Below, in pieces: positions 1-59,062 of a stretch of DNA of 59,062 nucleotides; position 1 is the stretch's first letter, and the number at the start of each line of letters is the position of its first letter. The stretch is taken from assembly GCA_947473045.1 (NCBI GenBank), contig CANJCO010000029.1, positions 1-59,062 on the forward strand. Reading direction: 5' to 3'. Source of the stretch: Myxococcales bacterium. Its GTDB lineage: Bacteria > Myxococcota_A > Polyangia > Polyangiales > Polyangiaceae. The notes below the pieces were generated by a model. That model searched no databases and had not been told where the DNA came from. It saw only the letters and a program-made list of their open reading frames with translations. The translations under genes were made by a program, and so were the position numbers.

Positions 1-146
1 AGCAGGCCGTTGAAGAACGGCCTGCTAGCCTTTCATCTCGGGGAGGTATGCACCTCCCCGCCCCGAAAAACGCGGTTTTTCGGGGTCCCCACCCCACGCA
101 ATTGGCTTCGCCAATTACTATCAGGGTGTTTTTCAACACCCTGCTA
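1..146 (-). repeat. Five-hairpin repeat element, copy A
   Basis: The element is a string of five perfect hairpins with almost no spacer: 1-26 (11-bp stem, GAAG loop), 39-60 (9-bp stem), 61-85 (10-bp stem of CCCCG plus five A), 100-116 (7-bp stem AATTGGC) and 122-143 (9-bp stem CAGGGTGTT). A C-rich linker at 86-99 (G-rich on the other strand) joins hairpins three and four. Position 4 to about 145 is identical to the reverse complement of 58916-59061, and a decayed copy lies at 14744-14880. Strand is set by calling the 58916 copy plus. No ORF is carried. It starts at base 1, so the true edge may lie outside the window. Confidence 0.93.
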
Positions 147-181
147 GCATCGAGTTTCAACCTTCCAATTTCAGAGGCTCC

Positions 182-13272: not shown

Positions 13273-13580
13273 GGCTCATGTTTGGCGCGCCCGGCCCCCG
13301 GCGACAAGATGTACGCGACGTCTTCGGGCGTGATCTCCGACAGGAGCCCGCCGTCCGGGTAACGCGCGACCACGCAGCCCACCTGCGGGCATACGCCCAG
13401 ACACCGCGTCGCCGTGATCCACGTCGAGACCACGAGGCCTCGCCGCGAGACCTCGCGCTTGAGTGCATTATACACGCGTTCGCCGGTCTCTCCGCAACCC
13501 GGCCCGAGCCCCGACGAAGCGTCGCGCCGGTTGGTGCACACGAAGATGTGATGCGCCGGCGAAAAGGGAGGCGCAAGCAT
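13269..13580 (-). CDS. Thioredoxin-like [2Fe-2S] ferredoxin
   Basis: The 103-aa protein matches thioredoxin-fold [2Fe-2S] ferredoxins: HIFVCTNRRD, GPGCGETG, ATRCLGVCPQVGC and a VVARYPDGG strand. Likely cluster ligands are Cys15, Cys29, Cys60 and Cys64, with an extra Cys69. Such proteins carry single electrons in the cytoplasm. It lies 7 bases downstream of the NUDIX gene and overlaps the 82-aa gene. No obvious reductase is nearby, so its redox partner cannot be named. Confidence 0.92.
   Translation of the reverse strand: MLAPPFSPAHHIFVCTNRRDASSGLGPGCGETGERVYNALKREVSRRGLVVSTWITATRCLGVCPQVGCVVARYPDGGLLSEITPEDVAYILSPGAGRAKHEP
13464..13474 (+). other. TGCA-N3-TACA motif, site 3 (centre TTA)
   Basis: Exact match inside the ferredoxin gene, on the strand opposite the mRNA. 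It is the only coding site found antisense. Confidence 0.6.
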
Positions 13581-13586
13581 GCCCGG

Positions 13587-14186
13587 CTAAATTCCGAGGC
13601 TCGCGAGCCTGCGCGCGAACGCGCCGAGCCCGGCGTGACAGAGCGCATGCTGAACGTGGCCGCCGTCGAGCAGCGCAGCGGTGTGCTCGACGGGCACCCG
13701 CGCCACCTCGCACTCCTCGGCGAGGTCGAAGCTCGGCTCGCGAACGCGCACCGCGCCGCGCGCCAAAAACGTGTGAAGCCGGTTGCCGTGCATGGGCGGA
13801 TTGGCGAACATCGAGATGAGCGGCTCGAGGGAATCGCAGGCGTAGCCCGTCTCTTCGAGCAGCTCGCGGCGCGCCGCGTCGATGGGCGCCTCGCCCTCGT
13901 CGACGACGCCTCCGGGGATCTCGAGGCTCATCGACTCGGATCCGAAGCGCCACTGCCACACCAGCACGAGCTGCCGGTCCGGCGTCACCGCGACGACGTT
14001 GCACCAGTCGCGACAATCGAGCGTGAAGACGTTTTTTCGAAACGCGCCGCTCGCGTCGAAAAGGGCGTGCTCGAGCACCCCAAACACGTTGTAAAATGCA
14101 ACGAGTTTTCGATTTTGCAGGCGCCAGGGCAGCAGCGTGGGGCCGGGCACGACGAACGGTCGCTCCTCGTGGCTCATGGCGCACAA
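13587..14186 (-). CDS. NUDIX hydrolase
   Basis: The 199-aa protein carries a complete Nudix box at about residues 92-114 (GGVVDEGE, then AARRELLEETGY), which binds the metal needed to cleave nucleoside-diphosphate-X compounds. The core resembles ADP-ribose pyrophosphatases, but substrate cannot be read from the motif. A second Met at residue 4 (14177) is an equally good start. It is the first gene of the minus-strand NUDIX-ferredoxin-Smr group and is divergent from smpB, with 69 bases between the two starts. Confidence 0.93.
   Translation of the reverse strand: MCAMSHEERPFVVPGPTLLPWRLQNRKLVAFYNVFGVLEHALFDASGAFRKNVFTLDCRDWCNVVAVTPDRQLVLVWQWRFGSESMSLEIPGGVVDEGEAPIDAARRELLEETGYACDSLEPLISMFANPPMHGNRLHTFLARGAVRVREPSFDLAEECEVARVPVEHTAALLDGGHVQHALCHAGLGAFARRLASLGI
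14090..14100 (-). other. TGCA-N3-TACA motif, site 4 (centre TTT)
   Basis: Exact match in the NUDIX gene, in sense orientation, read as GCA TTT TAC. Confidence 0.6.
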
Positions 14187-14255
14187 CTACCACGACTGCG
14201 CTATACGCAAACGTCCACGACGGAGAAGAGGCGCGTCTGGCGCCGCGGTGCGATC

Positions 14256-14735
14256 ATGAGCGAGAAAAAAGCCGAGGGCGAAAAGCTCATCGTCAAAAAC
14301 CGCAGGGCGACCTTCGACTACGCCATCGACGACACCTACGAGGCCGGCATCGTGCTGCTCGGCAGCGAGGTCAAGTCGATGCGGGCCGGCCGGGTCGACA
14401 TCGTCGACGCGTACGCCGCCGAAGAGAACGGCGAGGTCTGGCTAAAGCAGCTGTATGTGGCGCCGTTCGAGCAGGCGACGGCGTTTCCGCACGAGCCGCG
14501 GCGGCCTCGCAAACTGCTCATGCACAAGCGCGAGATCGCTCAAATCAAGAAGGCCATCCAGCGTGGCGGGTTCACGCTCATCCCGCTGCGACTGTATTTC
14601 AAGGGCGGCCGCGCGAAGGTCGAGCTGGGCGTCGCCAAGGGCAAGTCCAAAGGCGACAAGCGGCACGACATCGCCAAGAAGACCGCCGACCGCGAGGCGC
14701 GCGACGCCATCGGACGCGGCCGCAAGGGCGCGTAG
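14256..14735 (+). CDS. smpB: SsrA-binding protein SmpB
   Basis: SmpB binds tmRNA and brings it to stalled ribosomes for trans-translation. The 159-aa protein has the whole family pattern: LIVKNRRATFDYAIDDTYEAGIVLLGSEVKSMR at the start, then LLMHKREIAQI and LIPLRLYFKGGRAKVELGVAKGKSKGDKR, and a basic C-terminal tail. The start at 14256 is preferred over the longer open frame because it gives the exact family N-terminus. No tmRNA gene is visible beside it. A decayed hairpin array begins 8 bases after the stop codon. Confidence 0.97.
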   Translation: MSEKKAEGEKLIVKNRRATFDYAIDDTYEAGIVLLGSEVKSMRAGRVDIVDAYAAEENGEVWLKQLYVAPFEQATAFPHEPRRPRKLLMHKREIAQIKKAIQRGGFTLIPLRLYFKGGRAKVELGVAKGKSKGDKRHDIAKKTADREARDAIGRGRKGA

Positions 14736-14743
14736 CACGCGCT

Positions 14744-14880
14744 CGAAAACACCCTGCCAGGAATTGGCGAAGCCAATTGCGTGGGGTGGGGACCGGCGAA
14801 AAACCGCCTTCTTCGGGGCGGGAAGGTGCTTACATCCCCGGGATGAAAGGCTGGCAGGCCGCTGCTTCAACGGCCTGCTG
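14744..14880 (+). repeat. Five-hairpin repeat element, decayed copy B
   Basis: This copy has the same order and orientation as the copy at 58916 but is eroded. The left half of the CAGGGTGTT hairpin is missing, and the A-rich and GGGGAGGT hairpins carry mismatches that break several pairs. The AATTGGC hairpin and the G-rich linker GTGGGGTGGGGA are unchanged, as is GATGAAAGGCT before the last hairpin. It fills most of the 198-base gap after smpB. A further 7-bp hairpin (CTGCGCG/CGCGCAG) follows at 14889-14907. It may also terminate smpB transcription. Confidence 0.88.
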
Positions 14881-58423: not shown

Positions 58424-58918
58424 ATGGATCTCAGCTGGCAGAACGTCAGCCTCGTAGGCGCAGCGCTCGCCTTCGGCGCCTTCATGCTCTACCGCGTCCG
58501 CCCGGTCATCGACGGCAAGCGGCAGTCGCTTCGCGTCGTGCTCAAGGGCACCCGCGAGCGCATCGAAGCGGCTCCCGACGACGCCTCCCGCGCAATGGCG
58601 CTGTGCGATGCAGGCGACGCGTGCGCAGCCGCGGTCGGCCGAGCGGGGGCCTCGATGCAGTTCTACTCGCGCGCGATTCGCCTCGTGCCCGCGTCGGTCG
58701 CGATCACGCAGCGAGCGATCGCAGGCCTGTCGACGCGGCCTCGAACGCTCGAAAAGGTGCTTTGGCGCAGGCTCGCGCGCACTCCGTGGACCGGGGACGC
58801 GACCGAGGCGAGCCGCCTCGCGCTCGAGACGCTCGCGCGCCTCTACCATGGCCCGCTGCGCGATAAGGTCCGCGCAAAGGCCCTCGAACACGCCGCAAAA
58901 TCGCTGTTCGCGAATTAG
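58424..58918 (+). CDS. Membrane-anchored helical protein of unknown function
   Basis: The 164-aa protein has one N-terminal membrane helix (VSLVGAALAFGAFMLYRV) and a helical soluble part with TPR-like spacing (ASMQFYSRAIRLVPASVAITQRAI). No motif names a function. Its stop codon TAG is the first part of hairpin array C, so the repeat lies directly at its 3' end. Confidence 0.7.
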   Translation: MDLSWQNVSLVGAALAFGAFMLYRVRPVIDGKRQSLRVVLKGTRERIEAAPDDASRAMALCDAGDACAAAVGRAGASMQFYSRAIRLVPASVAITQRAIAGLSTRPRTLEKVLWRRLARTPWTGDATEASRLALETLARLYHGPLRDKVRAKALEHAAKSLFAN

Positions 58919-59061
58919 CAGGGTGTTGAAAAACACCCTGATAGTAATTGGCGAAGCCAATTGCGTGGGGTGGGGACCCCGAAAAACCGCGTTTTTCGGG
59001 GCGGGGAGGTGCATACCTCCCCGAGATGAAAGGCTAGCAGGCCGTTCTTCAACGGCCTGTT
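58916..59061 (+). repeat. Five-hairpin repeat element, copy C
   Basis: Same element as at 1-146, in opposite orientation, with five perfect hairpins in the order CAGGGTGTT, GCGTT-free AATTGGC, CCCCGAAAAA, CGGGGAGGT and AGGCCGTT stems. It is identical to the reverse complement of copy A over about 142 bases; only the outermost two or three bases differ (CTGTTA here, CTGCT there). It overlaps the stop codon of the preceding gene and runs to the window end. It may serve as that gene's terminator. Confidence 0.93.
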
Positions 59062-59062
59062 A

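Follow-up and report, generated by a model that had tools for sequence, protein, structure and literature searches.

The five-hairpin element found at both ends and in the interior of this stretch of DNA belongs to a MITE family that is new, has no name yet and departs from the ordinary in several variant features, as judged from a search that left ISfinder and most subscription papers outside its reach. The window analysed, 59,062 nucleotides long, is the whole of one contig (C29) of a 5.15 Mb Myxococcales genome, a short-read bin in 138 contigs that is 99.98% complete and is labelled G000 here. Very probably, this MITE was mobilised by an IS5-family DDE transposase, inserted at YTAR sites, survived in copies that restore a stop codon, and spread in several waves. 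The transposase would recognise the terminal repeats (CAGGSYGTTGAAR..., extending into self-complementary hairpins) and mobilise the MITE, and insertion at YTAR would duplicate the target bases. Since TAA and TAG both fit within YTAR, a stop codon hit by an insertion would be restored and the reading frame left intact; such copies would survive and most intragenic insertions would be lost. Several waves would account for the copies seen today: old ones in decay, a middle subfamily, and near-identical ones from a recent burst.

A sequence-only reading of the window had described a repeat unit at three sites, two near-identical and one decayed, and all three were located (Table 1). The element proper is 141 bp long (CAGG…CCTG) and consists of hairpins and linkers throughout, with neither a gene nor a transposase gene, in agreement with the earlier description of the unit as non-coding. 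Copies A and B are identical over 144 aligned bases, their one difference being a base of the target duplication, and copy A is 100% identical to ~20 other full-length sites in the genome. Copy C is 89.5% identical over its best 133 bases, and the AATTGGC hairpin and GTGGGGTGGGGA, reported as unchanged in this eroded copy, are both intact there. With a folding energy of -74.9 kcal/mol (z = -8.5), the five hairpins outdid every one of 200 shuffles; in the older subfamily, hairpins 3 and 5 are imperfect. Terminal inverted repeats were found at both ends (CAGGCCGTTGAAGAAC / CAGGGTGTTGAAAAAC), and each of them (hairpins 1 and 5) extends into its own palindrome and thereby forms a hairpin. Some relatives, and some of the old copies, have a different complementary stem in place of that of hairpin 4. 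Two of the copies adjoin genes: the TAG at 58916-58918, within the TTAG duplication of copy B, closes ORF 58424-58918 as its in-frame stop codon, and the ORF before copy C (13278-14735) matches SmpB in its C-terminal part.

Table 1. Positions of the MITE copies and their parts in the window.
Feature	Position	Strand	Remarks
Copy A, fresh-subfamily MITE, 141 bp	3..143	+	CAGG...CCTG
Hairpin 1, palindromic left terminal inverted repeat CAGGCCGTTGAAGAACGGCCTG	3..24	+	resembles IS5-family ends
Hairpin 2, conserved core	39..60	+	CGGGGAGG-TATGCA-CCTCCCCG
Hairpin 3, conserved core	61..85	+	CCCCGAAAAA-CGCGG-TTTTTCGGGG
Conserved C-rich linker TCCCCACCCCACGC (opposite strand: GCGTGGGGTGGGGA)	86..99	+	
Hairpin 4, AATTGGC-TTC-GCCAATT	100..116	+	
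Hairpin 5, right terminal inverted repeat CAGGGTGTTTTTCAACACCCTG	122..143	+	
Right target-site duplication of copy A, CTAG	144..147	+	left one lost at contig end, AG at 1-2
Copy C, eroded, older subfamily	~14736-14877	-	directly after TAG stop 14733-14735 of ORF 13278-14735
Target duplication of copy B, TTAG	58915..58918	.	second duplicate TTA(G) 59060-59062, cut by contig end
Copy B, fresh-subfamily MITE, 141 bp	58919..59059	-	

The three copies proved to be a large undercount of the family. The hairpin-4 pattern matched the genome 148 times and the hairpin-2 pattern 155 times, compared with 0 matches for a reversed control, and the search of this genome and of other Polyangiales that had been proposed returned ~150 copies in the former and the core in other Polyangiaceae. 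Sorted by age, the retrieved copies and partial copies comprise 87 fresh ones, which share at least 99% identity with the copy in the window, 14 of a middle group and 31 old ones. The older copies share distinct bases, with imperfect hairpins 3 and 5 and a longer hairpin-1 loop, and therefore point to successive waves; furthermore, fresh copies are nested beside or inside older copies or hairpins on contigs C7, C18, C53, C62 and C82. Very roughly 1/3 of the 276 contig ends fall in the repeat by a hand count, and the repeat thus accounts for much of the fragmentation of the assembly. The window itself begins and ends in repeat copies because the assembly broke in the repeat, and the presence of copies at both of its ends is an assembly effect and not a feature of the locus. 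A repeat family of this kind deserves a name and masking.

The flanks of the fresh copies carry the signature of a target duplication, with only one flank readable for the many copies that lie at contig ends. The left flank is TAG or TAA in 71/72 readable cases, and the right flank is mostly CTAG, CTAA or TTAG, with ATAR now and then. The search for target-site duplications that the sequence-only reading had proposed thus found one: in the YTAR duplication, R is identical on both sides in 42/43 fresh copies, where 26 would be expected (p ~1e-8). The complete 4-mer duplications are identical in 12/17 fresh pairs and differ at the first base in the other five. For IS5, YTAR has been published as the motif that is duplicated (PMC10359306). 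At several fresh loci (L014, L098, L127 and others) the left flank is CTAR and the right ATAR, and the altered base agrees with the inner arm of hairpin 5. The idea that the inner foot acts like a guide in targeting found no support in this genome, as the inner foot of fresh copies is fixed (CTAG or CTAT) and the targets vary.

The claim that copies sit at the 3' ends of genes reflects a real association. With stop-codon classes set, here and in the relatives, by GC content per codon position and not by curated gene models, 41/151 flanks end exactly at the in-frame stop of a coding-like frame, compared with 3/58 general YTAR sites of the window (p = 0.0003). It is the left end of the copy that lies at the stop codon in 28 of these and the right end in 13. 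The association arises at least partly because YTAR contains the stop codons TAA and TAG. Relatives with AAGAGCTGTCGA ends (those of genome G022 and three G068 copies) show a similar relation to another stop codon, as in 29/33 the start coincides exactly with an in-frame TGA, always in the same orientation, compared with 23/124 for CTGAG sites not judged intragenic. The copies of this type appear to insert at CTCAG, and in G022 it is the right end that sits at the stop codon; in G085/G090 the left end lies at an in-frame stop in 4/7 of the copies read. We infer that purifying selection lies behind the bias. Loss of harmful insertions surely contributes to it; for G022, such removal may be insufficient to explain it. 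The family lends itself to asking how a genome densely packed with genes can accommodate ~150 copies of a repeat and suffer little from them.

A candidate mover resides in the same genome. Contig C83 carries an element of ~1.34 kb that is bounded by CTAA on both sides (CTAA, then CAGGACGTTGAGA...TTTCAACACCCTG, then CTAA), has the ends CAGGACGTTGAGAAAC and CAGGGTGTTGAAATTC, and encodes an open 366-aa IS5-family transposase, P0001 (NF033581 at 273 bits, with a cut-off of 140; PF01609 and PF05598). Homologous IS elements in genomes G019, G101 and G102 bear CAGGCTGTTGAARA at their ends, and those of G101 and G102 are flanked by CTAG at either side. CTAG also flanks both sides of a decayed IS5-type remnant (~0.5 kb) in G011, whose ends are palindromic hairpins like those of the MITE. 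The ends of the MITE and those of all these elements are similar over ~13 bases and not identical. The resident IS occurs once, with two ends that are less alike than those of the MITE and that do not take the hairpin form. P0001 may be what moves the MITE in trans, as the resemblance of the ends suggests; alternatively, the mover may be a multicopy relative that dropped out of the short-read bin. Of the origins that the sequence-only reading had offered for the unit, a non-autonomous MITE is supported by the terminal inverted repeats, target duplications, nesting, ~150 copies and an IS5 element with similar ends and target. In G022, no transposase matching its terminal repeats was found.

Several other sources for the element were considered and rejected. 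The five-hairpin core had no match inside the IS elements examined, which share the ends alone, and the MITE was therefore not taken as an internal deletion of the resident IS. The idea that the inverted copies on C7 frame a composite transposon was discarded, the intervening 2.5 kb holding no transposase ORF when read by eye, and a phage or plasmid origin was set aside as the core pattern was unmatched in viral contigs and the unit unmatched in phages and plasmids. An open IS701-family transposase gene adjoins one MITE copy (locus L145, 238-1476, on C54); it belongs to another family and was taken as an unrelated neighbour.

The compensatory base changes that had been proposed as a check on the stems are present in the core. 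Both-sided changes occur in 16/18 stem pairs of hairpins 2-3, with 91 cells against 17.5 when shuffled, in a model-guided alignment that leans to its fitted structure and for which slid controls fall far below; in a MAFFT alignment of 11 sequences they occur in 6/18 of these pairs, with 1.4 in shuffles. RNA selection tolerates G-U pairs, and in the core stems these occupy only ~10/713 cells, being rarer than mismatches. In the old copies of G000, stems and loops change at similar rates (0.083 vs 0.097), 15 compensated pairs stand against 211 wobble or broken ones, and a test for strand-specific selection counted 75 G-T vs 51 A-C mispairs among copies that share ancestry. In G085/G088/G090, the outer four bases are complementary to the inner foot of hairpin 1 in 9/10 copies (p = 0.0003). 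The few G-U pairs, the similar rates of old stems and loops and the covariation of the foot, taken together, speak for palindromes that are constrained, or kept up by mutation, at the level of DNA rather than for a function as RNA. Among the loci concerned (L255-L261, L271-L281), the outer/inner foot pairs read CTGA/TCAG, CTAA/TTAG, CTAG/CTAG and CCAA/TTGG.

As an addition to transposition by an IS5-family enzyme, we consider it possible, if doubtful, that DNA polymerase switches template inside a hairpin and uses one arm as the pattern for the other, so that mutation and not selection keeps the palindromes perfect. The near absence of G-U intermediates is compatible with such a process, as are the inner feet that complement the outer bases in 9/10 G085/G088/G090 copies though the bases themselves vary, and the fresh G000 right ends that read ATAR instead of CTAR in agreement with the inner arm of hairpin 5. 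The 15 compensated against 211 wobble or broken pairs of the old G000 copies speak against it, and any correction between arms would accordingly be slow compared with decay.

It is unlikely that the repeat is instead a mobile structured RNA (a 3' UTR motif, a terminator or a small RNA) whose hairpins are kept by selection at the RNA level, as the sequence-only reading had allowed. The both-sided changes in 16/18 core pairs, the strong folding and the many copies immediately downstream of stop codons would all suit an RNA. Against it are the near absence of G-U pairs (~10/713 cells), the near-equal rates of change in the stems and loops of old G000 copies, and the end that meets the stop codon, which varies by lineage (both ends in G000, the right in G022, the left in 4/7 G085/G090 copies). 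No Rfam model was found at the gathering threshold in the window and none above the gathering score in seven loci, and a 1-kb scan around copy B returned 0 intrinsic terminators (a G+C hairpin followed by a T-run), leaving the idea of a mobile terminator unsupported at the copy scanned. Within the IS5-mobilised reading, the core would sooner serve mobility, whether by binding a protein or by extruding as a hairpin of DNA, than act as a host RNA; this is the weakest point of that reading, and the high probability given to the reading does not extend to it.

The core (hairpins 2-4 and CCCCACCCCACGC) recurs in other Polyangiaceae, among them Minicystis rosea, a bin labelled Labilithrix luteola and several MAGs, and a weak match with a similar layout was found in two more distant Myxococcota; under strict filters, 12/379 sampled genomes of the phylum match at E <= 1e-4. 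The terminal repeats differ by lineage, being CAGGCCGTTGAA in the genome of the window, CAGGCTGCTGAA in G005, CAGGCYGATGAA in G001, AAGAGCTGTCGA in G022, ATGACCGAGC in G085/G088/G090, AACGCCGATCGG in G023 and CTCAATCACCGAGC in Minicystis. Left ends, where preserved, are full hairpins; they are missing from some of the copies in G001, G005 and G035. MITEs are usually defined by transposase-matching ends around a free interior. Here, conservation between genera is stronger in the core than in the terminal repeats, the reverse of the usual situation, and a conserved core with swapped ends is not what a plain MITE would predict. It could be hypothesised that the core is an independent functional module, passed through several Myxococcota transposase systems by swapping ends and steering or licensing insertion at stop codons, possibly via pairing between inner foot and target; we regard this as distinctly unlikely. 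If true, it would make the element a transposon satellite defined by its interior and not by its ends. These lineages could serve as a natural series in which to ask whether hairpins in DNA play a part in transposition and how palindromes stay perfect.

Some further variants were seen among the relatives. In a distant one, G364 (L228, L236, L245), a similar hairpin pair occurs, once in tandem, and hairpin 3 keeps its GCGTGG loop with the stems replaced. The G022 copies (L183-L218) vary at the hairpin-1 loop, where one position is split four ways, a possible hot spot at the hairpin tip; most variation outside this loop merely divides two subfamilies. G007 holds solitary terminal hairpins of 22-27 bp without the core, apparently intergenic (L044, L052).

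That the repeat is a REP or REPIN, moved on single-stranded hairpins by a RAYT or another Y1 (IS200/IS605-like) transposase, is very improbable, for although hairpins at both ends, the solitary hairpins of G007 and insertion beside older hairpins would agree with it, no Y1_Tnp (PF01797) match was found in the genome itself (0, with control genomes positive), a target duplication is present, a product not known from Y1 transposition, and the ends resemble an IS5-family element. The REP-like label given by the sequence-only reading is further weakened by the foot of the hairpins, which lacks a GTAG-type tag and is CTAG, CTAA or TTAG, i.e. the duplicated target. Y1_Tnp was also absent from 9/12 genomes examined, most of them carriers of the core.

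Among described systems, no match to a named family was found, as the sequence-only reading had also reported, within a search that had ISfinder and most subscription papers outside it; a literature text search for CAGGCTGTTGAAAA returned no paper. REP/REPIN sequences with RAYT are likewise high-copy extragenic palindromes (PMC3733652), and differ in that here no Y1 transposase was found, the GTAG/CGTC tag is missing and a target duplication is present. The BOX, RUP and SPRITE elements of Streptococcus pneumoniae are also short intergenic repeats that cluster and insert into each other, SPRITE having terminator-like hairpins (PMC10969869), and are set apart by their published descriptions, being confined to other bacteria with different ends and targets. 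The IS5 family (the NF033581 group) shares the YTAR target, and its resident and related members have the ends CAGG[ACG]YGTTGARA; unlike the MITE, it carries a transposase gene, and the elements seen here lack the five-hairpin core. The closest described element that we found is MITEPsy1 of Pseudomonas syringae pv. phaseolicola, which, according to the accessible text of its description, is 100 bp long, without genes and with ends like those of the IS5-family ISPsy2, inserts at CTAG or YTAA with a 4-bp duplication, and was caught in an entrapment plasmid (PMC3189936); the present family operates in a similar way. The same text describes no core conserved across genera, and MITEPsy1 further differs from the present family in its low copy number (6 in the genome described), its 18-bp non-palindromic terminal repeats and its unrelated sequence (PMC3189936).
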